A stretch of DNA of 64,000 bases from assembly GCA_030272155.1 (NCBI GenBank), contig CP126201.1:186001-250000 (forward strand), given 5' to 3'. The DNA is from Tetradesmus obliquus. Lineage: Eukaryota > Chlorophyta > Chlorophyceae > Sphaeropleales > Scenedesmaceae. Each line of letters opens with the position of its first letter. Positions within the stretch are counted from its first letter, which is position 1. Under the pieces are notes generated by a model. That model was not told the origin of the DNA, ran no database searches, and was given only the letters and a program-made list of their open reading frames with translations. A program made the position numbers and the translations under genes. Positions 236-64,000 of the stretch are shown here, in pieces.

Positions 236-949
236 ATGGTCAGCCAGACAGCAGCTGCTGTTGGAGGCGACGTCATCACAGCTATGCATAGTCAGCAACA
301 CCCCACCAGCAGCTCTAGCAGCACCAGAAGCACACATTTATGGGGATCTAGCAACCTGCAAGCACTTGTCTCACATGCTGGCACAATGTCAGCAGCAGGG
401 GCAGTGCCAGCGTCAGCAACAGCAGCAGTAGTCCCTTGGTCGGCAGGCAGCCAAGTGCTGCAGCTGCCTGCATACACATCCTACGGCAGCACTCCTTTCT
501 TCCCAGTGATCTACTCCGTCCGGGAGCCAGCAGCAGCACAGTCAGCAGCAGGGCCTAGCCAGCATGCTACAACTACCAGCACAGTCAGCCCACAGCCTGC
601 AGCCAGCACTAGTAACAGCAGCAGCAGCAGTAGCATTGAAAATGAGCATGGGCAGCATATCAGCAGTAGCAGCAGCAGCAGCGGCAGCAAGCAGCGCCCC
701 TGGTCGGAGATGTGGCGCAGTGCTGGGGCGCATGCCCTGGGGGGAGGCATCCCTGGCAGTGCAGCAATGGTGGTGCAGGTGAGGCCCCGGGGGGGGGGGG
801 GGGGCATCCCTGGCAGTGCAGCAATGGTGGTGCAGGTGAGGCCCTGGGGGGGGGGGGCATCCCTGGCAGTGCAGCAATGGTGGTGCAGGTGAGGCCCTGG
901 GGGGGGGGGCATCCCTGGCAGTGCAGCAATGGTGGTGCAGGTGAGGCCC

Positions 950-981
<32 letters not shown>

Positions 982-3900
982 TCCCTGGCAGTGCAGCAAT
1001 GGTGGTGCAGGTGAGGCCCTGGGGGGGGGGGGGGGGGGGGCATCCCTGGCAGTGCAGCAATGGTGGTGCAGGTGAGGCCCTGGGGGGGGGCCCATCCCTG
1101 GCAGTGCAGCAATGGTGGTGCAGGTGAGGCCTGCAGGCTGCACTGCTCTCATTGCATCTTGAACCTGTCATACGGCATTGACTGCCAGCTGCACGCATTT
1201 ACCGGCACGCATGGTGAAGCCAGCAGCGGCGGCATGATGCAGTAGCATGCAATGCAGCTGGCACCCTTTTCGGTGTGCGGATAGCAGCTGCCCACCACTG
1301 CAGTGCTTTGCTGGTGACCTAGCAGCTTGGCGTGCTGCACGCCTGCCCTGCAAGAGAGGGCAGCGCTGGCTTTGCGGCTGTACGTTTCGAGAGCACCAGC
1401 TCATGTCAGACAGCGCAGTTGCCATGACTGCTCTATGTATGTGTGGCAGTTCATCCTGGCTCACTGCTTCTGCCCTGCTGCTGTTGCTGCTGCTGCTGTA
1501 GGTGCTGTCGCTCATGTGGCTGCGCACCACGGTCAACTACCAGTACCGCTTCGGCACCAGCACCAGCGTGGCACTGCGCACACTGTACAGGTGAGCGCCT
1601 GAGCGCCTGACAGGTGACGCGCCTGACAGGTGACGCGCCTGACAGGTGACGCGCCTGACAGGTGACGCGCGCTGCATTGCCTGCAGCAGCATGCAACCTC
1701 CACACTATCAGCAGCAGCAGCAGCACATTGACACAAATTGGTGTGAGCAGCAAGTCTGGCAGACTGGCAGTGCTGGTATCAGTAGCATGCACACGTGTCG
1801 CCTGCAACAAGCCTGGGCGCAGCCCGACTCTGCCTGCTACTGTGCTGCGAAGCTCTCTGACAATGCTATAACTGTGTCATCACTATGCCGCAGGGACGGC
1901 GGTATTGTGCGCTTCTACCAAGGGGTGGGGCCAGCGCTGCTGCAGGTGCGTAGCTAGCAGACAGCTGCTGCAGAGAGTGGTGTGGGCCAGCAGCTGTGAA
2001 CAGCACGAGCGGCTGCCATGCAGGTGGCTGACACACACAACACACTGGCTGCTTACGGCATCCTTGGGCTGGACACATGCTGGTTGCAACGTGCCCCTCG
2101 GCAGAGGGCTTCCAGCTGCTTCCCACCGCTTGCATTGCCATGTTGCTGCTCCGGCTCTGGACTCCTCTGCTGCCGCTACTGTTTCCAGTGATACCACTGT
2201 CTTCGCTGCTTGCACTGATGCATTCCTGCTCATACATCCTGCACATGCAGGTCCCGCTGTGCCGTTTCGGCGACACCGCTGCCCACAACTTCATGGATGT
2301 CACGATATGTTGGGTTCGACCACTGCTCCTGCCTGAATCTGAACCCTCTATTTGCAGGGCCCGCTGTGCCGCTTCGGCGACACTGCTGCTAATGCGGGTG
2401 TGCTCAGCCTGCTCAACGAGCTGGACGCCACGCGCAACCTGCCCGTGGGGCTGAAGACTGCCTGTGCCTCTGCCACAGCCGGCGCGTGGCGCATGCTGCT
2501 GCTGCCGCTGGACGCGACCAAGACCATGATGCAGGTGCGGTGGCAGCAGCGGTGGCAGCAGCGGCAGCAGCAGCGGCTGGACGTTGGCTTGCTGAGCATA
2601 TTGCTATGCCTGCAGCTGTCAGCACCTGATGCATTGTATCGATATCAGGTCCAGTGTATATATGCAGGTTTGGTCTGCTGGTTGTCCCCGCTTGCCTTGC
2701 AGCAGTAAGATGCAGCGCCGAGCATTTTTTGGACATGCTCGGCAGTTATTACTGTTCACGCGCAGCAAGCTGGTACTTATTGTGAAGAGCATAAGTATGT
2801 CTGTCTCAATCTGCTGTGCAACTGCTGCCGCTGCAGGTGGAGGGGCGCGCTGGGCTGCGGCACCTGTACAGCAAAGTGCGCCATGACGGGCCTGGCGTGC
2901 TGTACCACGGCGCTGCTGCGTCTGTGGCGGCAACCTTTGTCGGGCACTTCCCCTGGTTCACCACGGTGGGTGGGCGCATGCTGCTAAAAGCCGTCGAATT
3001 GCAGAGCGGCAGCAGCAGGAGCAGCAACAGCAGCAGCAGCAGCAGCAGCACATGTGCTGCCGTTGGTACTGTATGTTGACGCATGTCTGCCTTTACGATG
3101 CTGTTCACAGCAACAGATGTGCGCACTGCCTGTACCCGGCTCTCTTTGCACTGCTGGGCAGCTACCTCTACCGGCAGCTGCCGCACCCGGATGAGCTGAA
3201 GCTGTTGACCGCAGCCACACATGTGCTGCTCTGTAACACATGCGCCTGTGCACTGCTGCTCCCTCCTACCCCCTGCAGTACAACTACCTCAACCAGGTGC
3301 TGCTGGACCTTGATGAGCTCAGGCTGCGGCTGCTGCTGCTCACTCGATCTCCAGGCTGTTCAAACCAACGCATGTACTGTTTGTCAACACATGCGCCTGC
3401 GCACTGCTGCCCAACCACCCCTTGCAGTGCAACTACCTCAACCAGGTGCTGCCGCACCCCGATGAGCTCAAGCTGATGCCAGCAACCACATGCACTGCCT
3501 TTCAACACATGCACCTGTGCACTGCTTCCTTCCCACCCCCTGCAGTAAAACTACCTCAACCAGCTGCTGCTCATTCATTCTCCAGGCTGTTCACATCACC
3601 CCATGTACTGTTTGTCAACACATGCACCTGTGCACTGTCCCTGCCCTGCAGTACAACTATCTCAACCAGGTGCTGCCGCACCCCGATGAGCTGAAGCTGC
3701 GGCTGCTGCGCTCCGCCTTCATCGGCTTCTGCGCTGGCGTGGCCAGTGACGTGACCAGCAACAGCGTGCGCGTGGTCAAGACCACACGCCAGACCGCGCG
3801 GCGAGCCATGAGCTACAGGGAAGTCATACAGGTGCGCTACTTCAGTGTGGCGCTTGCTGCAGTGTCGCTGCCGACGTTTGTGGTTTGGGCAGGCTTTGTG

Positions 3901-16688: not shown

Positions 16689-19197
16689 TAGCAGCAGCCA
16701 CGCTGCTGCATGTCCCAGCTGCGACGCCAGTGCTAGGCTGCAGGACCAGCAGCAATAGCAGCAGCGGTGGCAGCAGTGCGGTGCATCCTGCAGGATGGAC
16801 GGCCTCTGGCGGCATCAGCCTGGCCCTGGCCAGCAGCAGCCTTGCAGCCCCCAGCTCACCAGCTACAGCTTGCGTAATAAGTCGCGCTGGTGCGCACGAC
16901 TCTGCCTCGGGCACTGCTGCAGCAGGCAGGTGGGCTAGCAGCAGCGTCAGCTCAGATGACACCGGCCTGTCTGCAGAGGCAGCAGCAGAAGCAGAGGAGG
17001 TTGCAGGAGAGGAACAGCTTGCAGGAAACAGCAGCAGCAGTAGTATGAGGCCGTCCTCTGCCCCAGCCACCCTGGCAACTCCACAACAAGCGTCAGGCAG
17101 CAGCAGCAGCAGCATAGAGGCTGCAGTGTGCCCCGCAACATGCAGTGACGGCGCAGCCGCAGCTTCAGCAACCTCTGCCAAGTGCGAAGGCGCTGATTGC
17201 GCAGCGCCGCAGCTGCTGGCTGCGGGGCACTGCTGCAGCCGTCACGAGGCGGTGCTGCTGCAGCTGCTGGCGCGCCTGAGCTGGCAGCTGCTGCCGCCTG
17301 CTGCACTGGAGCGGCTGGAGGCGCTGGCGCTGCTCAGCCCTGGTGCCCTGCTGGACATCTACAGGTGGGGAGGTGATGTGTGTGTTCTAGTGCTGTGATG
17401 CTGTGTGGTTTGGTGGCTAGCGTTCTTGTAGGGTGGCCAGTCGTGCTGTAGCAGTGGCGCTGCTCAGCCCTGCAGCGCGGCTGGACATTCAGAGGCGGGC
17501 GTAGGGTCGTGTACTGTCAGGGGGCAGCAGCAGCGTGGTGTACCTTGGCGGGTGGCGCTGCTCAGCCCATGCGCAATGCTGGACATCTACAGGTGGCAAC
17601 GCATGTGTATTGTGTTCTGTGGTGGCTGGAAGCAGTGCTGTTGCTATGGCGCTGGCGGGTGCAGCACTTTGACTACAGCAGGCCTGGATAGCTGTGGTTG
17701 AGCATCGTCGTCCCTGGGCGTCACTGCTTGCTTGGACCCCACTGCGCTTGCACATGCGTGTGATCAAGGCGCACGTGACGCAAGCACAACACCCTACACG
17801 AGTCTGCTCAGCACTGATCATTGTGCAACTGCTGCCTGCAGGGTGCACCAGCGCTGCAGCCACCTGGCGCTGTGGGGCAGCTTCCCTGCCACCACAACAG
17901 TGCTGCGGCCGGGCGGCAGCGAGGCTGGGCGGCTGCGCTGCTACACAGCGGGCGGCGAGCAGGTGTGTGCAATGCTGTGCTGCTCCCCACACTGCAGCTG
18001 TAGCATTCATAACTGACACAGTGTCAGGCCTTCCTTGCAGGACAGTAGGCATAGCACACCGGGAGGAGTTGCAGGACAACATGATTGCATCACAGCACAC
18101 CTTGGGGTCTTACAGGACAGTCTGCTTGCATCACAGCACACCTTGAGGTTTTGCAGGACTGTCGGTTTGCATCACAGCACACCTTGAGGCCGCAGGACAA
18201 TCTGCTTGCATCACAGCACACCTTAGGGGTTTTGCAGGACAGTCTGCTTGCATCACATCACACCTTTGGGTCTTGCAGGACATCATGCTGGCGCCACCGG
18301 CAGTGTGGGGCACCAGCTGTTGCAGGATGTTGCGGTGCGGCCCATTGCAACTCAAAGCAGCTCCTAGGTATTGGGCTGACGTTGTGCGCTGCGGTGCTGC
18401 TGCCCTGCAGGTGCTGGACTGTGACAGTCCGGCGCACATCACTGCCTCAGCCAACATGTGGCTCAGCAGCGGCAGGCACTGCTGGCAAGTAGTGCTGCTG
18501 GCGCCCTGTGACCTGGTGTGGCTGGGCGTGGGTGATGGCAGCCTGGCGCCAGACGTGTGGGGTGAGTGCTGTTGGTGTGGGCTGTGGCTGCTGCTGTTGC
18601 AATGTAGGATTGCAGTGGGCTGGCTGGCACATGCTGTGACCTTAACAAAGTAGTGGTTCACCTATGATATAAGGCGTGCAGTGTACATGCGCCCAGCTGG
18701 GTACATTGCTGTGGTGCTATGCTGGCTATCATGCAGCCACACCCAGGCTGCCCTTGCTGCTACTGTCAGTAATGCATATCGCACCTCTGCTTGCCAACCC
18801 CTCCGATCGTGCTGCAGGTGGCAAGCAGGCGGGCGGCTGGTTCTATGGCAGCAACGACGCCCTCTGCCACGACCGGCACAGCGACAAGCACGCGTACGAC
18901 AAGCATGCCGGTCACGGGCCTTGGGGTGCGCCAGGCACCGTGGTTGATGTCTGCCTGGACATGGATGCGCGTGAGCTGTGGTTTGGCGTGAACGGGGCGC
19001 AGCTGAAGCTAGGCTTTACGGGGCTGCCTGCTAGGGTTCAGCCTGCAGTGAGCATGAGAGCGCCAGGGCAGCTGCTGGTGCGGTTCAGGGCTGCCAGCTT
19101 GCTAACTGCTGAGCTGGTGAGCAGCAGCAGCGCAACGAGCAGCAGCACCGCTGCTGCTGAAAGTGTGCCAGCTTGGCGGCGGGAGACAGTGGGGTAG
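15311..19197 (+). CDS. BTB-BACK-SPRY domain protein, 5 exons, about 816 aa
   Basis: Exons 15311-15862, 16118-17364, 17842-17962, 18411-18561 and 18818-19197 (TAG) join in phase. Residues 1-130 form a BTB/POZ domain (FHDISFVCSDGKRIGSNRSF, MAASCEYFEKML, LETCSLAQLYMLPALQQHIA). A BACK-like region follows (LPLQRNCLQAHLQLIVKDIW), interrupted by about 250 residues of Ala/Ser/Gln low complexity. A second helical segment ends in LLSPGALLDIYR. The C-terminus is SPRY/B30.2-like: SSGRHCWQVVL, LVWLGVGDG, GGWFYGSNDA, VVDVCLDMDARELWFGVNG. BTB proteins commonly act as cullin-3 ubiquitin ligase adaptors with the other domain recognising the substrate; that role here is inferred from the family. The ATG at 15311 is preferred over upstream non-ATG codons. 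The exon 1 to exon 2 join is the weakest link. Confidence 0.82.
17440..17610 (+). repeat. Copies of BTB-gene exon 2 end in the following intron
   Basis: The exon 2 end and donor (gcgctgctcagccc...ctggacatctacag/gtgg) reappear twice, near 17458-17500 and 17550-17600. Each copy ends in an acag/gtgg- or cag/aggcg-like junction, and both are degenerate. Confidence 0.75.
18035..18285 (+). repeat. Intronic minisatellite, unit about 45 bp, 5-6 copies
   Basis: Within intron 3 of the BTB gene the unit ttgcaggacagtctgcttgc followed by atcacagcacacctt recurs with small changes. Each unit carries an acceptor-like ttgcag/gac. I could not match it to a neighbouring exon. Confidence 0.75.
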
Positions 19198-26324: not shown

Positions 26325-27547
26325 CTACTGCGCTGTGTTAGCAGTCCCGCTCAAGTCAAAGTTCAGTGTGCGCAGCTGCATCACCACATCCATGTCCCAC
26401 CCAGGCCCTCCATTCACAGGCCGCATCGCCTGCAGCGGCTGCAGCAGCTGCTGCAGGGTGGTGCCCTTTACAGCGCCACACACCTCCTGCAGCAGCGGCT
26501 CTGGCAGTGCAGCCAGCTGCATGCGGAAAGTTGAGTAGATCTCGTAGGTAATTTGTCGTGCTTCTGCCTGCTCATCAGGCACTGGCGGCAGCACGTCCTG
26601 CACGTCTTGCAGCACCTGCAATTGCAGAATTTGCCAAGCAGAAGAAACGCGGAAGCAGCAGGTCAGCCAGCTGCCAGGCACTAGCGGCAGCACCTCCTGC
26701 ACGGCTTGCAGCACCTGCAGTGACTTAAACAGCATCAGCCCACCAGCCTCACCCCTGGGGCGGCACGCTGAGCTGCAGCAATACCTCCAGCAAGCCCCTG
26801 ATGTATGCACCATGCAGCAAACACCTTCAACATGTACTTCACAATGCATGCTGCTTCCCAGACCTGGTCTCTGTGCACATACACAGCTGACATGCCCTTG
26901 AAACCCACTAATGGCCAACAAGAATGCCGAGTGTTATAACTTGGATCATAACTATAACTATAACACAACCACCACACCCACCTCTGGTGGCACGCTCAGC
27001 TGCAGCACTGCCTCCAGCAGGCCCCGTTTGGCCCCAGCCCCCGGCTGCTGCATGGCTTCGTGGTCCACGCGTGGCGCCTGCATCACCGGGCTGCTGCTGC
27101 TGCTGAGGCCGTCTGGGCCCACCACGCCCTGCCAGCTGGCATTGTTCCATAGCTCCTCCAGGCCTGCAGGCAGGCAGGCAATACATGCAGCATAGCATTG
27201 TGTAACGCAGCATGTTACAACGCAACATGTTACAACGCAGCATGCCGTAAGCCTTGCTTCACAGCTGTCACAGCCCCTCCAGGCCTGCAGGCAGGCAGGC
27301 AATAGAGTGCAGTTGACACAGGCAGTCAGTCTATACTGTCGCATGTTGCAACGCGATGTACGATGTCATGCTGTGCGCTTCACAGCTCCTCCAGGCGTGC
27401 ATGTATCCGCAGATGTTTGCGATGCAGCAGGGCGTCATACAAGCATACCGTGCTAACACCAGCTGACCCGGCAGAGCGCAGAGATGGCAGACTCTGCCAG
27501 ACTCAACATAGAGTGCCACACACTGCTGCCCTGCAGCTTCCAATTGA

Positions 27548-38238: not shown

Positions 38239-38590
38239 CAGGCAGGCGGTCGCTGTTTGAGGCAAGCTCTGTAACCGGCAGCTGCACGGCGTGGGGAGTG
38301 TGAGTGGCGGTGTTGTTGTGACACAAGCTGTATGTGGTGATGCGACTGGCGATCGCGGCAGCATGAAAAGCCCTTCTGCGACATTGTCGGGGTTGAGTAA
38401 CGTCGGCTGTAGTTGCTGCTACAACTAGCACTGGGCTGCATGCGCGGGAGTTCTGGGAGGCTGCTGGTGTGACAGGCAGGCTGTCAGTGCGACAGGCAGC
38501 AGCAAAGCATGGCGAGGTGTATGTGGTCATGGTGTAAGGACACAAGCTGTGTGTGGTGGTCTGATTGACCATTGCGGCAGCATAGAGAGC
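38175..38590 (+). repeat. Tandem duplication of the LRR2 3' end and UTR, period about 250 bp
   Basis: gctgcatgtgcgggagttct plus gggaggct at 38181 recurs near 38431. The following UTR text (ggcaggctgtca, gacacaagctgt, ttgtggtga/cggcagcat) recurs in the same order to about 38590. The stop codon region is thus copied downstream of the gene. Confidence 0.8.
38270..38274 (+). terminator. TGTAA polyadenylation-type signal for LRR2
   Basis: TGTAA lies 32 bases after the LRR2 stop. This is a little close for a typical site, so assignment is tentative. Confidence 0.4.
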
Positions 38591-41031: not shown

Positions 41032-42211
41032 GCAGCGATGCGGCCATCTTCCTAGGTCTGTACAGCAGCAGCAACATGACAGGGATGTGCAGTCTGCAGA
41101 AGCAGACCGCACTTCCAGCACTGGAGCCAAGCAGGTGAGGGTCCTGATAGGCACTCAGCAGCATGATGTCAAGATATATTTGCATGCAGCAAGAGCAGAA
41201 AAACCGGTGTGCATTGAGTCAGTCAGCTGCCTTGGAACGATGCTGACAATCAGAACGCTTGCTGCAACCAATGCTTGCAACTGTTGCATACATCCTTCAC
41301 TCGCCACCTGCCCGTAGCTTGCCTCTGGTGTGCTATGTTCCTGGCGTCAGCGCTGGCCAAGGGGTGTGAGTCGCACCCTGTTCCCTGCACATCAGCCTAG
41401 CATGCGGACTTCAACGTGCGCTGCTGTCGCCCTCTCTGCCTGCTGCTTCTTCCGCAGTCGACCAATGGCGCTGCAGCTGCAGCGTCTGCAGCTGCCGCCC
41501 CAGCCAGCGATGGCCGCTGGCGGCTGCTGAGCCGCAGCGAGCTTGCAGGAGGCACGCTGGAGGTGGTGGCCTGGGAGGGGGAGCGCTGCCTGCGCATATG
41601 GCTGCCGCCAGGTAAGTATTTCATGCTGCATGTGCTGTGCAAAGAGTGTTGAAGAGGCACCAGGCGTCTAGTTGCTTTGCTGGTTGCTATTACGTCCCAG
41701 TGGGTGCCTTGTGCAGTGATGGGAGCGCTGCCTGAGACGGTGGCTGCCGCCAGGTCAGTGTTGCATGCGCACTGCAACCTCTTAGTAGTAGCCACAGCGA
41801 GCTTGCAGGAGGCACGCTGGAGGTGGTGGCCTGGGAGGGGAGCGCTGCCTGCGCATATGGCTGCCGCCAGGTCAGCATCGCAGCTGCAAAATTTTATATC
41901 TCAAAGTTGATATATCCTGTGCTGGCGCTGCAGCTTCACAACAGTAGCGCCAGGCAGCACCCTCTTTGCCTGTTGCAGTTGCACTGCACTTGCACTGCAA
42001 CAAACACCATGTCCGTCCCTGTTCTTTGCATCCCTTTTGCAGCCAAACGATGCTTCTCTCAGCTGGCTGTAGCAAACAGTCTTTATGACCCGCCGCCATT
42101 TGAAGTGGTGATGGGCCGGCTGCTGCTGCTGTGCAGGCTACTGCAATGTGGACGCACGGCACTCCTTGTAACCAATGGCTTATGTGCTGCTGCTGCTGCT
42201 GCTGCCGCCGC

Positions 42212-42258
<47 letters not shown>

Positions 42259-45200
42259 TGCAGGCTACAGCTACGTTGATGCGCAGCGCTCCCCATACCC
42301 AGTAGTCTACCTGAACGACGGCCAGAACCTTTTCGGCGATTGCCCCACGCTCTCAGGCACCTCTTGGAATGCAGCAGACACCGCAGCGCACCTCATCGGC
42401 ACCGGCAAGCTGCCGCCGTTTGTGATTGTTGGCATCGACCATGCAGGGCCGCTGCGCAGCTACGAGTACACGCCCTGCACGCCTGGCAGCGGGCCGGGCG
42501 GCTTCAGGTGTGTGGTTGTTGGAGGGGTCATCCGATGAGTAATCGGGTGTTGGCATGCAGATGGACGCATGCGCTTGTGCAGCAGCAGCACGGTCTGGGC
42601 TGAAGCTGCTGGTGTTGCTGCTGCCGTGGCTATGCAACCTACACAACTTTCTGGTGTTTCCCTGGCGGCTCCAACAACCACTGCTGCTGCTGCTGGTGGT
42701 GGTGTTGCTGTCGCCCTTTGCAGGTCTGATGCTGCTGACTGGCCTGGCGGTGGCATTTATGCTTACCTGGACAGGCTGAGGGACGAGGTGCTTCCATGGT
42801 GGGTATTTGTTAACACTGCAGCACGCATAGTATGGCTTGCTGTTGAACATGATGCATCAAAACTATGTCACCTTTTACGAAGCAACAAGTGCACTTGCAC
42901 CATGCAGCAGCTGGAACTGTTGAATCTGAGATGCAGAGCAGGCGCCAGGCCCCACACCTCCACAAACCCGCAGGAGATGGCTACTGTAAGCGGCTTTCCA
43001 TGGACGAGTGTTCACACAAAGCCGTCAATCCTGACCGGTGCTGTTGTCGCATCACTCCTGCTGCAGGGTTTCTGCAAACTACCCCGTCTCAACAGACCCC
43101 CAGGACAGGGCCTTTGGTGGCAGCAGCTTTGGCGGCATTGCTGCGCTGGTGGCTGGCATGAGGGGTGCTGAGGGCTGCGGCTTTGGGGCGCTGCTGGTGG
43201 AGAGCCCCAGCCTGTGGATTGGGGACCCTGAGCCTGAAACGTTCCTCAAGGTGGGCTGGAGGGTCTTTAAATTTGGAACTGGAGAGTGTGAGCAATCTGC
43301 TTGCATATGCATGCATGCAGTGCGGGTGGACAGCCCCAGCACGTAGATTGATGACCCAGAGCCTGAGACCTTTTTGAAGGTGAGATTCACATGTTTCTAT
43401 GATGGTGTGAAGACAGCGCAGGAATCTGCATGCAGATGCATGCATGCAGTGCAAGTTGGGAGCCCCAGCCTGTGGACTGGTGACCAACAGTCAGAGATGC
43501 TCCTGCAGGTGGGCAGCGCTGGCTGCGCTTGCGCCTGCTCTCCCGCAGGAATTGTTGGCTTACAACAGCTCCTGGTGTTATGGAGTTACACTCAAATGGG
43601 TGCAACAGAGCACTCAGGCAAACACTCTCCATCTTTTGCCTGTTCAATGCGCTGCTATCACTCACCACTTGCTACATGCCTCGCACCGCTTGTTGCTCTT
43701 CATCATGCTGCAGGACATGCTGGCCTACAAGGGCTCCCGTCTGCAGCAACCCACCACTGCTTTTTGCCACTCACTGTGTGTGCCTTGTCTCTGCTCTCTG
43801 TTCTGCAGGAGGTGCTGGCCTGTAACGACTCACCTCCGTCACCTTGTCAACCACTGTGCGTGCCTTGTGTATACGTCAACCTCCCGACTTGCAGGACGTG
43901 CTGTCTTACAAGGGCTCTGTCCGCAGCGGCTGTGCCTTGTCATGGGCGGCATGGAGTACTCCGGCACAGTTTCTGGCCCTTGCCGCTTGCTTTTGCTCAC
44001 AGACAGCACGTCATGTTTGCTGGAGGTGCAGCTTGTAGGGGCTCCAGGGCTGGGACGCTGAACACAATCTCGTCATAGCTGCCTTACTGTGTTGCTGCCA
44101 CTCATCGCTGCTTACTTCTCCTCTCGCTGCAGGAGGTCTTGTCCTACAAGGGCTCCTGGCCGCAGCGGCTCTACCTAGGCATGGGTGGCAAGGAGTACTC
44201 CGGCACACGACGCTCCTACCTCCCCCATCCCCTTACAATCACTGATTACACATCTTCTTGCAGCGTGCGATGGCTACAAAGGCCCCTGGCCGCAGCATGT
44301 GTACCTGGGCACAAGTGTCTCGTAGTGCTCATACGCTTTGCCCTCTGTTGCTTTGACGTGCAGGAGGCCGTATCCTACAAGGGCTCCTGGCCGCAGCGGC
44401 TCTACTGAGGCATGGGTGGCAAGGAGTACTCCGGCACATGGTTTCCGTAACCTTTCTGCCCACCGCTTGCGTGTCTCCTTGCAGGAGGTCTTGTCTTACA
44501 AGGGCTCCTGGCCGCAGCAGCTCTACTTGGGCATGGGCGGCAAAGAGTACTCCGGCACACGCGGTGGCCAGCGCGCAGAGCATGATGCAAACTTCCCTCG
44601 CTACCTCAAAGCCCTCTATGCCAGCCTCACTCAGGCAGGCCTAGGCCCCAGCCGGCTGGCTTGGGCATTTGAGCCTGAGCATGCACACACTGAGTCAGCG
44701 TGGGCTGGCCGGTTTGCGGCCGCGCTGCAGTTTTTGGGTGGCGGCTGGTGGCAGCGCTGGCTGCAGCGGTATACTAATGAGCTGTTCTTCACTGTTCCGA
44801 GGAAGCTGCAGGCCGGGGTGCCTGGCCAGCTGCTGTTCGTCAACCGCCGCAACAGCCACACGCTGCAAGGGGTGCGGGGAGGCCTGAAGATGATTGTGGG
44901 CAGGAATGGATGGGAGCACACGCAGCACCTGCCTATGAAGTTTGCAGGAGAGGTGCAGGTGAGGCTGCAATTGTACACAAGCTGCATGTGAGAGTGTAAG
45001 GTTGGCGTCCTATGTGTGTATGTGACTTGCTGCTGGTGCTGTTGCAGCGCTGCGAGTGTGCAGTCAGGCGCTGGTATCATATGCCTGCTTGTTCATATAT
45101 GGCTGCAGCGGCTAGAGCTGATACAGCCACAGCAGCTGCACAGACCCACCCTGCGGCGCTGAAACAATGCTGCGCGCTGTGTTCCCATTTGCTCTAGTAA

Positions 45201-48200
45201 TGGGCTGCAGGAAGCAAGTGTAGCCAGTGTACTGTACTTGTCAGCAGGTGTAGCCAAACCACTGCTGGTGTTGACTGCCTGCTTGTGCGTGTTTGGCTGC
45301 AGCGCATGGAGCTCAAGGAGCCACAGCAGCTGCGGGAGCAGGTGCTGGATGAGTGGAGGAGTGAGTACAAAGCTGTTCAAGAAGAGCAGCAGCGGCAGCA
45401 GGAGCAGGAGTTCCAGCGGAAGATGGCCACAGAGCGAGAGAGGCTTGCTGCTGCAAGAGCCGCAACAGCAGCATCCGCAGCGGCGGCTGCTGCGGCTGCG
45501 GCTGCTGCAGCAGCAGCAGCTGGCACTGGCACAGGGGCTGGTGTGGCGTCAGGGGCAGGAAGTGTGGCGCAGCAGGAGCAGCAGCTGCAGCAGTGGCAGG
45601 CGCACCTGGATGACCAGGAGAGGCAGTGGCGGCAGCGGCCGCCGCTGCCACCTGCAGTGTCGCCGCAGATCCAATCTGTGCTGTACCAGCAGCCGGTGAG
45701 TGTTGTGGTGCAGCCTATTGCAGAAGATGCATGCAATGTCGACTGATACATGGCTGTCTGCGGTAGACTGCACTTCGGATGCGCCAGCTGGTGCCTGCAC
45801 AGCGTTCCTAGATGCGCATTTCCGTGTATGAGCTGCAGAGCTGGGACCTTTTGCAGCATCATTTGCATGGGTGTGGTCTGGGGCTTTGCACAGCTTGTTG
45901 CCACATGCAAGATGCCCTTTAAGCCTTTCCTGCAAGCTGTACATTGGCCAGTTGGTATATCAACATCTGACTGACAGCTGCATCTGGTGGGTAATGGCAG
46001 TGTCCTACTCATCAACCTGCTGAGCACAACATGCGGTCCTTCCTTTTCCCCTGCCTGCAGGCCAGCTGCAGCATCGATGACGGCAGCAGCGACTGGCTCA
46101 TGGTGCAGCTGCCTCCCCTGACTGGTGACGCCTACGAGGTCAACTTTGTGTTCTGCGATGCAGCCGGCACAGCATATGACAACAATGACAGCAACGACTT
46201 CTGGCTGCCGGTGCGCCAGCCTGAGCAGCTGCTGCCACACACACCCGGCGGCGGCAACAGCAGCAGCAGCGGCGGCAGCAGCATTAGCCGGCCAAGCCGC
46301 AGCTCTGGCACAGTGGCAGCAGTGGCAGCAGCCTTTGCAGGCGATGCCTGCGGCTGGCTAACCCCCGGAAGAGGCCTGGAGGCGTATGCAGAAGCGCTAG
46401 ATGCTGCTACTGCTGCTGCTGCCAGGCCTGCAGAGGAGGCCATTGCAGCAGCAGCAGCCAGCTGCCAGTACTTTTTCTTCAGCCTGCCTCCTGTGCCTGT
46501 GGCTGGCGCGAGTACTGCGCTGTATGTGAACAAGGCGCGGCTGTGCAGCGGGCTGCAGGAGGCCAGCAGCCTGAGGCTGAAGGTTGGGTTCAACAGATGG
46601 CAGCTGCTGGACCAGGTGCGGGGCATGACTTATTTGCATGGTAATTATGGCATTTGCAGGTGTTTTATTTAAACTAGTACGGTGTATTGGTTGTGTATGT
46701 TGACAAGGCTCGCCTGTGCAGTGGGCTGCAGGAGGCCAGCAGCCTAAGGCTGAAAGTGGGCTTCAACAGATGGCAGCTGCTGGACCAGGTGCGGGGCGTG
46801 AAGTTTATTGTAGAGTAAATATGGTGTCTGCAGGTGTTTCTTCAAATCTATTGCTATGTACTGGTTGCTGCTGTGTATGATTGCTGCAGCTGCCCAAACT
46901 GGTGGTGTTTGTTTGCTGCAACTCACGTGCTGTTTGATCAGGTGCTTCCTTGCGCTGCACCGTGCTGCTGCTGCTGCTCTAAACAGGTGGAGTGGCACTT
47001 TGCTCAAGTCCACCGCTCAAAAGGCCCCAGCTGGTGGCGTACCTATGTGTCTAACCCCTACTTCCTTTCGGTTTGTCTCAGCCCCCAAACATGTTGTGGC
47101 GTGCTGCTGCTGCTGCCGCTGCGCATAGGTGGAGTGCCACCCTGCTGGTGCCAGCCTCTCTGGCGGGCGCATTTGGTGGCGCACAACATGCAATTGTGTC
47201 CTAACCCCTGAAGTTGCTGCGACGTGCTGCTGCTGCTGCTGCTGTTGGTGCTCTCAACAGGTGGAGTGCCAACCTGCAGGCGCCAACCGCGGTGGCGGCC
47301 CTGACTGGTGGCGCACCACGGTGACGGTGCCTGTTGACGCCACGCAAGCTCACTTTGTGTTCTCTGGCGACTGCTACGGCGAGGAACGCTGGGACAACAA
47401 TGGAGGTGGGCGATGGGTTGCAGGCAATTGTTATAGTTACAGGGTTGTTTTATGGCGGTGTGCTGTCTTTGTTTGATTGCCTGTGAACGCAATGCAGGCT
47501 TGGTTTGTGTTCTGTGGGGATTGCTACGGCAAATAAGGCGGGGACAACATCGACGGTGGAGAGTTGGTTGCAGGAGGTTCGTGAAGTGCCGGGCTGTTTG
47601 TGGCTGCGTGTGGTCTGCGTTGGTTGCCTGTGGACGTTATGCAGACTGATTGTGTGTTCTGTGGGGATTGCCACGGCAAGGAATGCTGGGCCAACTACAA
47701 AGGTGCGCTGAGACAGGCTACGTGGCTGTCATGTATGTGAACCCTGGAACCACTGTGTGGAAGTGCTGCTGCAGCTTGCAATGTTATGTGTTGGATATGG
47801 GTGCTGAAATCCAAGCTGTAGAGGCCTGTCGAAGTGCTGCCTCTGCATAATCATGCTGCAACACACAGAAGGTGCTGCTGCCTGCTGCCATATGCATGTG
47901 CAGGCATCGACTTCCAGCTGCCTCTGCGCTCAGCGCTAGCCGCCGCAGTGGCTGCCAGCGCACAATCCTCGCTGCAGGCAGCAGACGCCACACCCGCAGC
48001 AGCCACCCACAACACTGCCAGCAACGGCAGCAGCAGCAGCAACGGCCAGCAGCAGCACAAGCAGCTGCTGCTGCAGCCAGGCAAGCCTATCATAAAGAGT
48101 CCGCTGGACCGTGCCACCCCTGCAGGGTTTGCCCTGCGGGAGGTTGAGTCAGTGCAGGCTCTAGAGCATGCAGGAGGCACGCTGGAGATCCTGGAGCTCA

Positions 48201-51200
48201 AGAAACGTGTGGACCCTGCCAGCCTCGATAGCAGCAGCAGCAGCAGCAACGGCAGCAGTGGCAGCTACAGCCGCAGCAGCAGCAATGGCAGCAGCAGCAG
48301 TAAAGAGGCTACTGGCAAGGCCAGCAACGGGACCGGCAAGAAGTCAGTGATTGACAGCATCTGGAGGAGCAGCATGTCCAGCAGCAGCAACAACAGTAGT
48401 GTAGGCAGCTGGCGCAAGAATGGCAAGCCTGCTGCTACCACCAGCAGCAGCAACAGCACCACCACCACCAGCAGCAGCAGCAGCAAGGCTGAGGCAGACG
48501 ATCTGCCAGAGATCGACGCTGCTGCTGCTGCCAACAGTGAGAAGGCCAAGCGGCAGCGCTGGTGGGATGAGAAGAGGCTGAGGGTGTGGCTGCCGCCAGG
48601 GTTCAAGCCGGAGGATGCACCACCTGGCGGCTGGCCTGCGCTGCTGATGTGTGACGGGCAGGTGAGGTGTCGCTGCTATGACGCAGCTGTATCGGATGTC
48701 ATGTGCTGCTGCCACGGTGTTGATGGTGCTCGGAGGGTGATCTGCCGTCATGTGGTGGTGGCTGCATTACACACCAAGCACCGCGCCGTCAAGCAGCAGG
48801 CTTCTACTTGAATGACAGCTTAGCAGACAGTGATGTGGTGCTGCGTCATGGGTTCAAGCAACATGCTTTGCGAGCTATCCAGCACACGACGCAGGTATTG
48901 CCTGTCGTAGGTTGCAATCCCAGCCTCTTTATGCATTTTCACACTCTCGTCATCACGTGTCTGATGCCTGCTGCCTGCCGTACTTGCATGCCTGCAGAAC
49001 ATGTTTGAGGACTGGCTGAGTCACCAGGTGCGCGCAGCAGCGCTATATGCATGCATCTCCCAGCACGGTGATATTGCATTCAGTGCGGTGCTTGCCAAGG
49101 GCATCATGCCAAGTGTTTAGACAGCGCAGCTGTTGAGGGCGTGTGCTGTCAGCGCAGTGCATGTGTTCAGAGCGCACAGCGCTGTGCCAAGGCACCTGCA
49201 ACTGCATTCTTATGCTGGCAGCATGCATCCAACATGCTGCTGGTGCTCCTGGTGGAACTGCTTTATACAAAGCGCTGGTGGTGGTTGGTGCACGGTGGGC
49301 GCTTAGCTGAGAGGCCAGTCTGTTCGGCTAGTGCCAGTTCAACAAACTCACCCCTGTTGCTGCTGCTGCAGGGTGTGTCATGGAACTTGGGTGTCACGGC
49401 AGCAGAGCTCATCGCATCTGGCGCCATCCCGCCATGCGTCTGCGTTGCCATTGACAGCGCAGGACCATACAGGTGAGCTGCACAGACAGCCTAGCAGCTT
49501 TGCAGCTTGTTCTACGTGTCAGCATCCAGTGCTACATGTTTCATTGTCTGTGAGGAGTTCAAGCACTGCCTGCTGTTATGTTGCTGCTACGGCCCCCTGC
49601 TATGTCTAGTACCTGCAGTCTGGTGATTGCCTGCATGCCGTGCAGGTCGTACACCTACCTGCCCTTTTTCTGCTGGCACAGGCCAGGGCAACTTTCTTCA
49701 GTAATGCTCTAGTTCACAGGCTGAAAGGTTCTGTACTCACAACAAAACCACTGTAATGCGTGCCGTGCAGGTCGTACAACTACCTGCCATTTCCCCCAGG
49801 CACCGGTCAGGGCAACTTCCGTGAGGATGCTGCGCGCTGGCCCGGCGGCGGCGCAGACGAGTTCCTGGGCAGGGTGCAGCACGAGCTGCTGCCAATGCTG
49901 CAGGATCGCTACAACCTCTCACAGGTGGGTCTGCATTTAGGGTTATTTTGAACCTGTCACCAATCGTGGGTCGGCTTGGTGGGGGCGCAGTATCTGGGAC
50001 GAGTGCAGCACGGAGCTGCTGCCCATGCTGCAGGAGCGCTACAACCTCTCACAGGTGCGGCAACTGTTTTGCGTTCAAGTTCTGTTAACAGAGCTGTTCT
50101 GTAAACCAGTTTATGTCGACGCCCCAAGCGAATTGGTATTGAACGTGACAGGAAGGGCTGTTGATTAAACAGCTTTGTGTAGTGGCCGAATGTGAAAATT
50201 GACACACCACTGTGGCTCGTCGTCTGTTGTGCAATGCGCAGGGCTGGCGTTTGGCAGCTGTTCCTTTGTCGGTGTGTCTGCATGCCCCTCACAAAAAACA
50301 CTGCCTTGCTAATGTTTAATTGTCCCAGTCTTTTGTGTCGCAGGACCCATTGCGGCTGGCATTGGGATCATCCTCGGTGGCTTCATGCGGGTGTGGCGGC
50401 ATTGGTTCTGAATGCTGCTGTGTTGTTGTTTGACCATGTGGCCCACGCAGGATTCTTCCCGGCTGGCGTTTGGTGGCGGCTCCTTTGCTGGCGTGACGGC
50501 GCTGATGGCTGCGATGCGGCTGCCGCATGTGTTTGGCAACGTGCTGGTGGAGAGCCCCAGCTTGTGGACAGGGGAGGGTCGGTTTTTGGAGGTGAGTTGA
50601 CTTGGTATAAGGCCAGTTACGCCATTTGTGGATGTAGTGCTCGCATGTACATGTAACATGTTTGGTGCGTGCTGGTGGAGAGCCCCAGCTTGTGGACAGG
50701 GGAGGGCCGCTTCCTGAGGTGCTGCTGGTGGCACATATGCTACTATTGGTAACGTCTTGAGGCTGTTATTGTTTAATCAGCTGCTGGAACAGCTGGCACA
50801 GTTGAAGCAACATGTACCTTGTAGCCTTGGCCGCTTATACTGCTGTGTACTGTGTGTGGGCTGCTGCTGCTGCTGCCACTGCAGGACCTTGCCGCACACT
50901 CCGGGCGTCTGCCGGAGCGGCTGGCGCTGGGCTGCGGCACGCGCGAGTACAGCGCGACACGCGAGCATGAGCGCTACGACGTGGACCAGATGCTGCTCAA
51001 CGTGAGTGACCCTACAAAATGCATGTTATGTTTTGATGTTGAGGCGGTTCTGACGCACAGTATGCTTGTGTCCATTTAAGCACGCGTGCTCGTACGAGCG
51101 CTAACACCTAGACCGGATGCTGCTCATCATGAGTGATCCTGCATAGTGTGTTTCAGTACGCGTGCGCACGGATGTGCCCGCGCTTGACTTGTCGTGCCCA

Positions 51201-53215
51201 TGCGCGCGCATGCAGTTGTGTGTGCATGGGATCGTGTGTGCATGTGCGCGTGCGCACAGATCGGTCAATTATGTGCTTGTGCGCATGCGCGCATGCGTGT
51301 GTCAAGTTTGTGCCTGCGCGATTGGGTGCTTGCATGCATGCTACGCACGCGCGCACAAACCCACACGCGTACGTCAAATCATGTCTATTCCAATGCGCGC
51401 ACAGGTGCGTAGGCGCACGCTCCACGTACGTGTGAGCATGGCTGCATGCGTGCGTGCACGCGCGTGTGTAAGCCTGCTCGTGCACGCATGAGATTCGTGT
51501 TGGCACCTGCATGCGTGCACGTCGAGTTTGTACAAACATGTGTGCGTGCTTGCATGCGTGTGCGTGTGTGCGCGCGTGCAGTTGCGTGCGTGCTTGATTG
51601 TGGGCATGTATGACTGCATGCGCGCGTGGGCGTTGTGTGTTTGCGAGCCCATGCACGCTCGCATGAGTTCGTGCCTCAACACGCATGCGTGCATGCGTGT
51701 GCACGAGCGCGTGTTTGTATGTGAGCATGTTTAGGTGGGTACACGTGCGCGCGCTCGTCTTGCCATGTCTGTGTGTGCGTGTGATAGTGCATGCAAGTGT
51801 GCGTGCACGTGCGCGAGGGCGCCCGCGATGTTGAGTTTGTGGTCAAGCACGTGGCTGCGTGAGTGCGTGCGTACATGCGCACGTTTGCGAGCATGTTTGT
51901 GTGTGAGCATGTGTGCCTGTGTTCCTGCGTGCACATGCGCGCACAAAGAGTTTGCACATGTGCGTGCGTGTGTGCGTGCGTGCGTGTGCGTGCGTGCGCG
52001 CGCATGCGGTTGTGATGTATGTGTGTTTGTGTGCATGTGCTTTAATTTGTGCAATTGCATGCGAGCGCGTGCCGGGGCGGGGGTACCAACATGCACGTGT
52101 GCATGCTTACATGCATGTGCGCGTGCCTGTGTGTGCGCTTGTGTGCGTGCTTGTTGTATGTGAGCGAGTCTATGTGTGTGCGCGAGGGCGTGCACTTTTT
52201 GAGGTTTTGCCTGCATACATGCGTGCGTGTCGGCATGCGTTTATGCTGGTGCATTCGTGGGCAGGTTTGCGCGCACGTGTGTGTTTGCACGCGTGTCTAG
52301 TTTGTGGGTGCTTGCATGTACATGCGCGTGTGCGCGCGTGTGCATGCGTGTGCGCGTGTGTTTCGAGCTCGTGCGTGCGTGTGTGCGCGCATGCTTGTCT
52401 TTGTGTGTGAGCGCATGCAAGTTTGCGCACGAAAGCGTGTGTGCATGTGTGCTGATCTGTACGGACTACGAGTGTGCAGGCGTGTGTGCGCGTGTGATTG
52501 CGGGCGTGCCTGCATGCGCGCATGGGACGTCGTGTGTTTCTAGTGCAGGCGCGCGTGTGTGCGTGCTTGCGCACGCGTGTGCAAACTTCTGCAAGTGTAT
52601 GCGCTTGTCTGTGTGCATGCATGCCCACTGACGCTCCTGCTGTGTCTGTTATTTGCCCCACCTGTAGCAACATCACGCGGCCTACAAGCTGTTGCAGGAG
52701 CGAATACAATGTCTGCACTGCACTGCATGTTTCAATGACACGTCGTCCATTGCTTGTGTTTGCCTGCAGCAATACCTCGTCGAGGCATCCAAGCTGCTGC
52801 AGGAGCGCGGCCTGCGGGGCGGGGCCTGCTTCATGTTCTGGGTGGACGCAGCTGCCCTCAGCTGCAATCCCCACAGCATGCCCACTGACGCTCGTGCTGC
52901 CATCCTTTCTATGTTTTCAGCGACACCACGAGGCCTCCAAGCAGCCACACAAGCGCGTTCACCTACTGCATGCCGTGCGCACTGCACTGCACTGCACTGC
53001 ACGTTGCACTGACATCCTTGGAATGCCTGCAATCTTCCTGCCTGTCCCTGCAGCAATACCACGAGGCCTCCAAGCTGCTGCAGGAGCGCGGGCTGCGCGG
53101 CCCTGGTCGCTTCATGTTTTGGGTGGACGAGGGCGCGGGCCACCACGAGGGCGCCTGGCGCTGGCGGCTCAACGGGGCGCTGCGCTTCCTGGCACAGGGC
53201 TGGTGGGACGCCTGA
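40871..53215 (+). CDS. Dual esterase-domain protein with two starch-binding-like modules, 16 exons, about 1316 aa
   Basis: Exons: 40871-41134, 41458-41611, 42264-42507, 42724-42798, 43067-43250, 44485-44958, 45303-45695, 46061-46615, 47261-47405, 47904-48661, 48998-49027, 49372-49472, 49771-49924, 50451-50591, 50885-51001, 53054-53215 (TGA). Every junction is in phase. The N-terminus (MNLQQRSIHHPCSGRTASFL) looks like a plastid transit peptide. The first Fes/esterase-D-type alpha/beta hydrolase domain has LRIWLPPG, YPVVYLNDGQNLFG, FVIVGIDHAGPLRSYEYTP, nucleophile AFGGSSFGG, LYLGMGGKEYSGT and histidine region PEHAHTESAW. Two CBM25/53-like modules follow: LMVQLPPL...EVNFVFCD...DNNDSNDFWLPV, then ALYVNKARL...KVGFNRWQLLD, DWWRTTVTVPVDATQAHFVF and WDNNGGIDFQLPL, as in starch synthase III. 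The second esterase domain has LRVWLPPGF, AFGGGSFAG, LALGCGTREYSAT and DEGAGHHEGAW. A starch-surface deacylase role is an inference. Confidence 0.86.
41715..41880 (+). repeat. Copies of exon 2 end in intron 2 of the esterase gene
   Basis: A short copy at 41722-41756 (gggagcgctgcctgagacgg...ccgccag/gtcag) and a longer one at 41795-41872 repeat the exon 2 end (ELAGGTLEVVAWE...) with its ccgccag/gt donor. The longer copy lacks one G in the run and is out of frame. A copy of the exon 3 start lies at 42134. Confidence 0.82.
42180..42255 (+). repeat. (GCT)n tract before exon 3
   Basis: Nearly pure GCT/GCC triplets run up to the acceptor at 42263 and form its polypyrimidine-like region. CTG runs in this role recur at many acceptors in the window. 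Confidence 0.85.
43300..43512 (+). repeat. Two decoy copies of esterase-gene exon 5 end
   Basis: Copies at about 43318-43380 (gtggacagccccagcacgta...tttttgaag/gtgaga) and 43448-43509 (gggagccccagcctgtggac...ctgcag/gtgggc) repeat the VESPSLWxGDPEPETFLK-coding end of exon 5 with its donor. The first has an in-frame TAG. Confidence 0.82.
43540..44450 (+). repeat. Seven decoy copies of esterase-gene exon 6 start
   Basis: Acceptor plus exon-start copies lie near 43549, 43714, 43809, 43897, 44134, 44266 and 44363, before the real exon at 44485 (EVLSYKGSWPQQLYLGMGGK). Most read E/D-x-LSYKGS-like after ctgcag or ttgcag. The copy at 44134 is nearly intact. The copy at 44363 carries a TGA in place of the LGMGG start. 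Spacing is roughly 90-240 bp. Confidence 0.88.
46680..47195 (+). repeat. Copy of exon 8 end and two copies of exon 9 start
   Basis: Bases 46692-46791 repeat the exon 8 end almost unchanged (YVDKARLCSGLQEASSLRLK...WQLLDQ/gtgcgg). Bases 46987-47040 and 47129-47190 repeat the start of exon 9 (aacag/ or catag/gtggagtg..., with SWWRTYV in the first). Confidence 0.85.
47490..47710 (+). repeat. Two decoy copies of exon 9 end in intron 9
   Basis: ttgtgttctgtggggattgc plus tacggcaa at about 47503-47570 and the similar block at 47648-47702 repeat the exon 9 end (FVFSGDCYGEERWDNN). The first contains a TAA where the exon reads an acidic residue. Confidence 0.82.
49635..50400 (+). repeat. Decoy copies flanking exons 13 and 14 of the esterase gene
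   Basis: A copy of the exon 13 start lies at 49645 (tgcag/gtcgtacacctacctgcc). A copy of the exon 13 end with donor lies at 49985-50054. Two weak copies of the exon 14 start lie at 50241 (cag/ggctggcgtttggcagc) and 50342. Exon 14 itself is at 50451. Confidence 0.78.
50655..50715 (+). repeat. Copy of exon 14 end in intron 14
   Basis: gtgctggtggagagccccag plus cttgtggacaggggagggcc repeats the VLVESPSLWTGEGRFLE-coding exon end and ends in tgag/gtgctg. Confidence 0.85.
51140..52625. repeat. Alternating purine-pyrimidine (TG/CG/CA) tract, about 1.5 kb
   Basis: Inside intron 15 the sequence is dominated for about 1.5 kb by gtgcgtgcatgcgtgtgcgc-type alternation without a fixed period. It gives long meaningless Cys/Ala/Val/Arg or His/Ala/Thr frames on both strands. 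Alternating CG/TG/CA DNA is the classic Z-DNA-prone composition. No gene is present. Confidence 0.85.
52660..52970 (+). repeat. Three decoy copies of esterase-gene exon 16 start
   Basis: Copies lie near 52668, 52771 (QYLVEASKLLQERGLRGG...CFMFWVD, close to intact) and 52920 (RHHEASKQP), before the real exon at 53054 (QYHEASKLLQERGLRGPG). All follow cag- or tag-type acceptors. Confidence 0.85.
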
Positions 53216-53221: not shown

Positions 53222-53425
53222 TATGGAAGCCTGGCGACAGGCTGAGCAGCATGTGCAGGGCTGGCGCAGGCTCAACGGCGCGCTGCGCTTCTGGCACAGG
53301 GCTGGTGGGACGCCTGAGCAGTGTGAGGGAGCCTGGAAAGAGGCGCGTGGTACAGCTGAGCAGCATGTGCAGGGCTGTCGCAGGCTCAATGGCGCGCTGC
53401 GCTTCCTGTCACTGGGCTGGTGAGC
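53222..53425 (+). repeat. Two copies of the esterase-gene terminal exon end after its stop
   Basis: Just past the TGA, the block caggctcaacggcgcgctgc plus gcttc...gggctggtgggacgcctga is repeated at about 53266-53315. It recurs at 53380-53422, the latter ending gggctggtga. Each copy carries its own stop. Confidence 0.85.
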
Positions 53426-62836: not shown

Positions 62837-62963
62837 TCAGCTGCTGCTGCCCCGCCGTTTCCGCAGCTCCTCCAGCAGCTGCTCCACCGCCTTGATCTGG
62901 CCCTCCACTGCCGCCTTGCTGCTGTCTGCTGCCTTGTCCTCATCCACGGTCTCAAACACATGG
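62837..62963 (-). CDS. Terminal exon of an unidentified gene (coiled-coil tail)
   Basis: The exon starts after a ttgctgcag acceptor at 62964 and ends at TGA 62839-62837. It encodes HVFETVDEDKAADSSKAAVE, then GQIKAVEQLLEELRKRRGSSS, a charged helix likely to form a coiled coil. Its phase (one leading base) fits a donor of the form gtgcacag/gtgagg seen in every unit of the neighbouring 53-bp array, giving a VSDKRVH/S junction. Earlier exons must lie beyond the window. Function unknown. Confidence 0.5.
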
Positions 62964-63184
62964 CTGCAGCAACAGACATTGCGCAAGTGCATAACAGCAT
63001 GTACGTCAGTGCATTGCACAAGGTTACACATATCTGGAGGCAGCAGGACGAGATTAGATATTCGATACATCACATGCCTCAATCTGTGCACTCGCTGACG
63101 CAGCGGCCAGCATTTGTCATGCACAGGGACGTACGTGAGCTGCCTTAGCTGCATCCCGGGTCACGCAGCCCCCTGGCAGCAACC

Positions 63185-64000
63185 CATGTCAACACAGCCC
63201 TTCAGCAGCCCTCACCTGTGCACGCGCTTGTCTGAGACATGTCAACACAGCCCTTCAGCAGCCCTCACCTGTGCACGCACTTGTCTGAGACATGTCAACA
63301 CAGCCCTTCAGCAGCCCTCACCTGTGCACGCGCTTGTCTGAGACATGTCAACACAGCCCTTCAGCAGCCCTCACCTGTGCACGCGCTTGTCTGAGACATG
63401 TCAACGCAGCCCTTCAGCAGCCCTCACCTGTGCACGCGCTTGTCTGAGACATGTCAACACAGCCCTTCAGCAGCCCTCACCTGTGCACGCGCTTGTCTGA
63501 GACATGTCAACACAGCCCTTCAGCAGCCCTCACCTGTGCACGCGCTTGTCTGAGACATGTCAACACAGCCCTTCAGCAGCCCTCACCTGTGCACGCGCTT
63601 GTCTGAGACATGTCAACACAGCCCTTCAGCAGCCCTCACCTGTGCACGCGCTTGTCTGAGACATGTCAACACAGCCCTTCAGCAGCCCTCACCTGTGCAC
63701 GCGCTTGTCTGAGACATGTCAACACAGCCCTTCAGCAGCCCTCACCTGTGCACGCGCTTGTCTGAGACATGTCAACACAGCCCTTCAGCAGCCCTCACCT
63801 GTGCACGCGCTTGTCTGAGACATGTCAACACAGCCCTTCAGCTGCCCTCACCTGTGCACGCGCTTGTCTGAGACATGTCAACACAGCCCTTCAGCTGCCC
63901 TCACCTGTGCACGCGCTTGTCTGAGACATGTCAACACAGCCCTTCAGCTGCCCTCACCTGTGCACGCGCTTGTCTGAGACATGTCAACACAGCCCTTCAG
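63185..64000 (-). repeat. 53-bp satellite whose unit contains an exon-end/donor junction, 15 or more copies
   Basis: The unit catgtcaacacagcccttca plus gcagccctcacctgtgcacgcgcttgtctgaga repeats every 53 bp to the end of the window with few changes (gcac for gcgc near 63279, caacgc near 63403, cagctg in the last units). On the minus strand each unit reads tctcagacaagcgcgtgcac then ag/gtgagg, a strong splice donor after a VSDKRVH-coding end. Confidence 0.92.

Follow-up and report, generated by a model that had tools for sequence, protein, structure and literature searches.

Short tandem copies of exon edges in the introns of Tetradesmus obliquus genes

The stretch of DNA analysed here (the window) comprises 64,000 nucleotides of the green alga Tetradesmus obliquus, positions 186,001 to 250,000 of contig CP126201.1 of the assembly GCA_030272155.1, and contains, among other predicted genes, a mitochondrial-carrier gene, a gene with KH and DnaJ domains, and two esterase genes. 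In the introns of these genes the end of the preceding exon with its donor site, or the start of the following exon with its acceptor site, recurs in short direct copies. A first-pass annotation, made from the letters of the window alone, had described such copies and read them in terms of a tandem-duplication model of spliceosomal intron gain. Results of our analysis confirm their presence in the window and at other loci; the best reading, as far as the tests reach, is that these duplications lengthen introns and do not create new ones.

Exon-edge copies in the window and at other loci

The main sample (264 kb) consisted of the window together with 20 loci of 10 kb each, placed arbitrarily on 12 contigs, and a larger sample with five extra loci (314 kb) was analysed at a slightly lower duplication threshold; in loci L013 and L029, 2,500 bases read N in each. 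The genome comprises 104,662,953 bases (104.66 Mb) in 17 contigs, and PMC12571836 gives 104.70 Mb, 17 contigs, and 56.5% GC for this assembly. Duplications were detected by self-BLAST with simple repeats masked and a spacing below 1.5 kb, with one order-2 shuffle per sequence as a control. Genes were predicted with the use of a purpose-built hidden-Markov gene finder trained on the sampled sequence, which provided 59 good-score models with 427 introns. Its first passes fused neighbouring genes, and the model at 35.3-54.7 kb still spans several of them. The models used are backed by domain matches on nine of ten protein stretches typed without the copies (the tenth had none), namely, mitochondrial carrier (two stretches), KH plus DnaJ, two esterases, Cdc27, IF-2 (L028), prolyl oligopeptidase (L033), and C2 (L027).

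The main sample contains 68 direct local duplications, none inverted, and none was detected in the shuffled control. While 28 of the 68 lie within the window, 20 of the 40 clusters beyond it fall in only two loci, L027 and L028. Among the 83 clusters of the larger sample, 53 pair a confident exon with non-coding sequence, 16 are intronic, 8 are intergenic, and 6 are exon-to-exon; the last were set aside, as were such duplications in 2 of 177 introns. The share of duplicated sequence in this sample is 14.8% in predicted introns, 9.6% in confident exons, and 4.3% in intergenic DNA.

The association with exon edges is side-specific. When the first and last 60 bp of 178 confident exons were used as probes at an alignment score of 18, exon tails were found to recur in the adjoining downstream intron in 15 of 156 cases and exon heads in the adjoining upstream intron in 22 of 158. 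No reverse-complement control reached this score (0/156 tails, 0/158 heads), and neither did any wrong-side control, for which exons of at least 150 bp were used (0/100 and 0/99); mid-exon probes reached it in 1 of 47 and 1 of 44 cases. The tail and head rates are 8/37 and 11/37 in the window vs. 7/119 and 11/121 at the other loci. Of the predicted first and last coding edges, which are modelled with no splice site on that side, 2 of 20 and 3 of 22 are accompanied by copies, and some of these edges may belong to cut models.

At the level of junctions, the earlier estimate of about 40 copies in 64 kb was reproduced: 40 copies were found at 25 of the 108 confident junction sides of the window. 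The number of distinct copies is slightly lower, as exon 44133-44202, the reference for four of them, is probably a copy as well, and 44364-44438 was counted twice. The accompanying statement that at least eight genes are affected is plausible and not proven, with copies present in six gene models, one of which fuses several genes. Wider probes revealed 119 copies at 67 of 403 junction sides of all loci (314 kb); a coding-repeat locus, L020, was left out of most copy counts (116 of the 119 kept) and included in the counts of gaps and of changes by codon position. Junction-type matches are present in 36 of 177 introns and in 0 of 177 when the intron letters are shuffled, which bears out the expected enrichment of introns in exon-like copies.

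The duplicated unit is of remarkably constant length. Of 119 gaps between neighbouring copies, 85 measure 90-149 bp, with a sharp peak that includes 25 gaps of 120-129 bp, and several intron-only duplications share the spacing of about 120 bp. Exon sequence mostly accounts for 33-81 bp of a copy (10th-90th percentile, all loci), in agreement with the 30-150 bp reported initially. Acceptor-type copies (n = 56) span intron tail, acceptor, and exon head, with an intron-side score of 9.6 vs. -3.9 for shuffled sequence. Homology extends to the intron half of the unit, as measured over 113 copies (mean score 6.9 vs. -4.1 shuffled), and the units are therefore collinear. The copy load differs strongly between genes: among confident junction sides, L028 has copies at 14 of 22 and L027 at 8 of 20, and both L018 (0 of 40) and L014 (0 of 22) have none. 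Eleven introns carry copies at both ends, as compared to 3.8 expected under independence. In the IF-2-like gene (L028:2494-3950), one donor is followed by an array of near-identical units of exon end and donor, mostly 116 or 121 bp apart.

Two arrays were used as queries in a search of the whole genome, with simple repeats and very common words skipped, and no dispersed copies were found. The matches were confined to the arrays' own loci, save one 83-base match on contig C9, and a dispersed element was rejected for these two arrays. The copies of the window and the exons to which they relate are listed in Table 1.

Table 1. Exon-edge copies and related exons in the window (window positions)
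Feature	Position	Strand	Remarks
Mitochondrial-carrier gene, predicted exon	386..835	+	Mito_carr domain in downstream exons
Copies of carrier exon end and CAG|GTGAGG donor	858..1123	+	two aligned copies 96% and 99% identical
Copy of head of exon 2358-2534	2253..2282	+	AG intact
Four intron-tail and exon-head copies of carrier exon starting at 3652	3159..3570	+	spacing 106-149 bp
Functional carrier exon for the copies at 3159-3570	3652..3831	+	end of first model; later models extend to 3939
Two copies of end and donor of exon 17264-17364	17445..17592	+	one donor GC, not GT
Copy of head of minus-strand exon 26325-26615	26663..26714	-	
Two intron-tail and exon-head copies of J-domain exon 34008-34093	33760..33931	+	
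Functional exon of KH/DnaJ gene, copies at both sides	34008..34093	+	DnaJ and KH_1 matches
Copy of end of exon 34008-34093	34186..34227	+	donor lost
Copy of head of exon 34612-34759	34500..34537	+	AG intact
Copy of head of exon 37192-37565	37074..37101	+	
Copy of head of exon 37969-38212	37856..37912	+	
Copy of end of exon 37969-38212	38432..38462	+	
Two copies of end and donor of exon 41492-41611	41721..41870	+	
Two copies of end and donor of esterase exon 43067-43250	43321..43504	+	GT intact in both
Array of acceptor and exon-head copies of esterase exon 44485-44958	43721..44438	+	some with in-frame stops
Functional esterase exon	44485..44958	+	PF00756 match on protein without copies
Copy of end, donor, and intron head of exon 46061-46615	46694..46788	+	8 of 9 differences at third positions
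Two copies of end of exon 47280-47405	47478..47695	+	
Copy of head of exon 49771-49924	49646..49708	+	
Copy of end and donor of exon 49771-49924	49989..50054	+	
Decayed copy (78%) of head of exon 50451-50591	50242..50281	+	
Copy of end and donor of esterase exon 50451-50591	50659..50712	+	PF00756
Decayed copy of end of exon 50885-51001	51081..51126	+	GT changed to AT, stop, frameshift
Three acceptor and exon-head copies of exon 53054-53202	52668..52957	+	
Two copies of end of exon 53054-53202	53260..53419	+	

In the mitochondrial-carrier gene, a 52-bp unit with the end and donor of the first listed exon recurs between about 748 and 1131, and the true donor is probably the first one, with its GT at 779-780. 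In the gene model, an in-frame stop at about 53215 lies just past the functional exon 53054-53202, and the two copies downstream of it are therefore probably beyond the coding end. The region 41003-53202 comprises two neighbouring genes with the esterase domain PF00756, in both of which the matching junction, the one after VESPSLW, carries copies. Since these copies differ in letters, the arrays of the two genes probably arose independently, after the gene duplication.

Repeats of other kinds are also present in the window. An array of a 72-bp repeat at 60254-61739 (60.3-61.7 kb) translates on the minus strand into what we take to be a leucine-rich repeat and does not consist of exon-edge copies; the exons near it, at 56-58 kb, presumably encode a KAP-like NTPase. 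The window ends within a 53-bp minisatellite (63185-64000), of which there are at least 15 copies with an identity of about 98-99%. On the minus strand its units contain a strong donor-like CACAG|GTGAGG, with a score of 8.41 vs. a median of 5.77 for predicted introns. About 2 kb at 51156-53129 are rich in alternating GT/GC/CA, unlike their surroundings.

Decay of the copies and intron length

Sequence changes were assigned in 35 arrays with at least two copies. Copy-unique changes in the window number 34/38/30 at codon positions 1, 2, and 3, while those specific to the functional exon are distributed 1/2/11; therefore, the window copies drift and the functional exon is constrained. Without two arrays tied to the doubtful exon 44133-44202, the respective numbers are 26/31/24 and 1/2/10. 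A stop or frameshift is present in 20 of 40 window copies vs. 17 of 76 elsewhere. The window copies are parts of exons and not the whole constrained exons by which tandem exon duplication or mutually exclusive exons are recognised.

Over all loci, 38 of 44 donor copies and 38 of 42 acceptor copies retain their splice dinucleotide, with 38.1 and 36.4 expected neutrally (44 of 58 and 38 of 46 in a looser alignment made earlier). There is thus no sign of selection for or against the copied splice sites. At non-window loci, copy-unique changes are distributed 46/51/80 over the codon positions, and the fraction of third-position changes, 0.47 in the window (125/265), is higher there. Purely neutral decay everywhere, which fits the window, was rejected because of the third-position excess at the other loci. 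For this excess, sequential copying, an allelic origin, or constraint on some copies may be considered.

The identity of 116 copies to their exons ranges from 72% to 100%, with a median of 0.90, and is at least 95% in 24 of them. Therefore, the process appears to be ongoing and its products not merely relics, as was supposed in the first-pass annotation. Its further statement, that similarity rises toward the functional copy, was not confirmed: the nearest copy is the more similar one in 20 arrays and the farthest in 12, with two ties, and similarity is not significantly correlated with distance to the exon (Spearman -0.08, P 0.42).

The use of splice sites can be followed in one gene with a solved protein structure. 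Three stretches of 54, 54, and 89 residues encoded at L036/L039 are identical to the chain of PDB entries 1fc6/1fc7 (residues 195-388), which we take to be the D1 protease of Scenedesmus (= Tetradesmus) obliquus. The exon that starts at about residue 247 has a copy of its head 91 bp upstream, identical at 42 of 49 positions and with CAG intact, and only 1 of 12 exon-edge probes of this gene reached the threshold. The solved chain is continuous through this residue and does not contain the copy; therefore, the outermost acceptor is used in this gene although the copied acceptor retains its CAG.

Introns with copies are longer than those without. The median length is 588 bp for 42 of 184 introns with copies and 276 bp for the remaining 142 (P 7e-13). 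According to published data, introns of T. obliquus average 462 bp, more than in three other Sphaeropleales (230-302 bp) and Chlamydomonas (270 bp), as an intron-lengthening process would predict. The duplicated piece consists of an existing junction together with its own flanking intron, and it is an existing intron that is lengthened.

Origin of the duplications

We consider it likely that these features result from local tandem duplication across coding edges, which is tolerated through the use of the outermost splice sites and makes introns grow. Short local tandem duplications, mostly of 90-150 bp, would arise continually in the genome, possibly when staggered breaks or paired nicks are repaired, or by slippage between repeats. 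A duplication that spans an exon edge would copy either exon end, donor, and intron head, or intron tail, acceptor, and exon head. The only usable copy would be the one contiguous with the rest of the exon, i.e., the first donor or the last acceptor, and the duplication would be tolerated because splicing at the outermost sites keeps the protein unchanged. Such use of outermost sites in living cells is supported in one gene, that of D1 protease. The inner copy would then join the intron and decay as non-coding DNA. Repetition of these events may produce arrays at one junction and at both intron ends, with a growth of about 120 bp per round.

Several observations weigh against this explanation or limit it. 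The exon and intron models are gene-finder predictions made from the sequence. Copies are also more readily found in longer introns, where there is more sequence to search, which accounts for part of the length difference. The third-position fraction of all copies is 0.54 (95% bootstrap 0.49-0.58) vs. 0.42 under simulated neutral decay. Divergence of the unit's intron half is much greater than would be expected from its exon half (the score of 6.9 compares to 26.3 expected), and even in the youngest class it scores 8.2 vs. about 31-34 expected with ascertainment simulated. Finally, junctions are hit too often. In 177 well-bounded introns, junction-type duplications make up 36 of 44 (0.82), whereas random duplications of about 121 bp, simulated under the same constraints and scored at the same threshold, gave 0.53-0.54, and 0.39-0.48 when a minimum of 40 nt of intron had to be copied. 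The larger set comprises 53 junction cases and 14 others (53/67; the 72-bp array and the GT-rich stretch excluded from the observed counts) vs. a simulated fraction of 0.26-0.31. The simulation was run without fast divergence of the intron half, which would hide intron-only cases, and the excess may stem in part from a quicker loss of similarity in intron sequence. Pure survivorship of random duplications, for which the simulation yields too few junction cases, was rejected as the whole explanation and kept as a part of it. The best reading does not account for the junction excess, the fast divergence of intron halves, the third-position excess beyond the window, and the uniform unit length.

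The same junction excess would be accounted for if exon edges were the target of duplication, whether through chromatin, transcription, or exon-intron composition, and the unit were fixed at about 120 bp, instead of duplication being random and followed by selection. Such targeting, which we regard as possible but doubtful, is also in line with the narrow unit length, with the number of introns affected at both ends, and with the uneven spread over genes, as exemplified by L028 and L018. However, faster intron divergence would inflate the excess, intron-only and intergenic duplications exist, several of them with the same spacing, and predicted coding ends without splice sites are affected at a similar rate.

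The third-position excess beyond the window could also mean that some copies were recruited as exons, either mutually exclusive ones or by means of a cryptic donor as in potato, and are under selection, with new introns between copy and original. The de novo gene finder called 36 of 116 copies in-frame exons, most of the copies tested have an intact splice dinucleotide, and an array in L033 consists of four stop-free copies and one decayed copy. Nevertheless, we find such recruitment unlikely. Neutral decay predicts the same retention of splice sites, window copies change evenly over codon positions and half of them have a stop or frameshift, the copies called exons are not clearly more third-biased (0.61 vs. 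0.51), and the D1-protease copy is absent from the protein.

Slightly less probable still is unequal exchange between diverged alleles or hybrid chromosomes, by which copies would differ from birth, mainly at silent sites and in introns. A class of 26 copies, near-identical at codon positions 1 and 2, shows 11% difference at the third position and has strongly diverged intron halves, which speaks for this origin. However, a high third-position fraction in that class is obtained in the simulation as well, through the selection of the class, and the intron divergence exceeds what silent divergence would predict.

Classical spliceosomal intron gain, in which the introns adjoining the copies would have been born from a duplicated exonic AGGT segment (PMC4974935, PMC3443670), is very improbable. 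Tandem duplications are indeed abundant, some of them are young, and in potato a junction-crossing duplication is documented to have given rise to a new intron (PMC4974935). That model would imply similarity of the intron head to the downstream exon start and of the intron tail to the upstream exon end. In 175 introns with confident flanking exons, none shows such similarity at 60% or more on either side; mean in-register identities equal those of controls (0.249 vs. 0.258 and 0.259 vs. 0.257), and local alignments scoring at least 14 number 0 vs. 1 and 1 vs. 0 in controls. Furthermore, the copies contain existing intron sequence, and AGGT is present at 2 of 111 exon-side breakpoints vs. 1.6% of random exon positions, in disagreement with the protosplice sites proposed in the first-pass annotation. 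Of its intron-gain reading, the junction-crossing tandem duplications stand, while the signature of gain is absent; as a general explanation, gain of the classical type is contradicted by the latter and by the non-AGGT breakpoints.

Assembly artefacts or ordinary minisatellites and coding repeats, true of a few loci (the 72-bp array, the 53-bp minisatellite, and the GT-rich stretch), are hardly credible for the rest, as assembly errors should be near-identical and the copies have a median identity of 0.90, and as they are side-specific and occur on several contigs.

Relation to known systems and significance

Local tandem duplication across coding edges is of a known kind; what is new here is its scale, its uniform unit, and its uneven spread over genes. 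In potato, a junction-crossing tandem duplication seeded the second intron of the RdRp gene (PMC4974935), with a unit that, as in T. obliquus, spans intron tail, acceptor, and exon head. A new intron results there, whereas here copies are present at 67 of 403 junction sides and probably stay within the introns. By analogy, the process in T. obliquus seems to resemble the first step of the potato intron gain, and a junction-crossing duplication could in principle seed a new intron. Local within-gene tandem duplication is shared with the tandem genomic duplication model of Rogers and Hellsten (PMC3443670, PMC4974935), which uses an exonic AGGT segment and the intron-to-opposite-exon similarity of which is absent here. 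Frequent within-gene duplications are likewise shared with internal gene duplication (Gao and Lynch 2009, as cited in PMC4974935), some cases of which span whole introns; partial exon edges in introns are not mentioned in the cited passage.

Break-repair tandem duplications of plants and animals (PMC8355091), which are short and direct, are a plausible source of the units, although the available text of that source reports neither a fixed unit of about 120 bp nor a link to exon edges. In the case of introners (PMC9860276), the common ground is bulk change of intron content, mainly in fast-evolving lineages such as green algae. However, introners insert themselves into many genes, and the two T. 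obliquus arrays searched are specific to their own loci. No earlier report of the pattern was found in the open-access literature (preprints and most subscription papers were outside the search), and the word "intron" is absent from the main texts of the T. obliquus genome papers PMC7590803 and PMC12571836.

A more far-reaching view, which we offer only tentatively, is that T. obliquus has an active duplication process with a fixed unit of about 120 bp that acts preferentially on coding edges in some of the genes, has made the introns affected about twice as long, and maintains a large stock of splice-competent partial exons as a source of new exons and introns, a part of which, beyond the window, may be under coding selection. 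For annotation, the 36 of 116 copies that resemble in-frame exons to a gene finder are a warning. Junction-crossing duplication, a proposed step in the evolution of introns and exons, is visible here many times and at every stage of decay in one species, which would allow measurement of how often the copies are spliced, how fast introns lengthen, and at what rate copies become exons.

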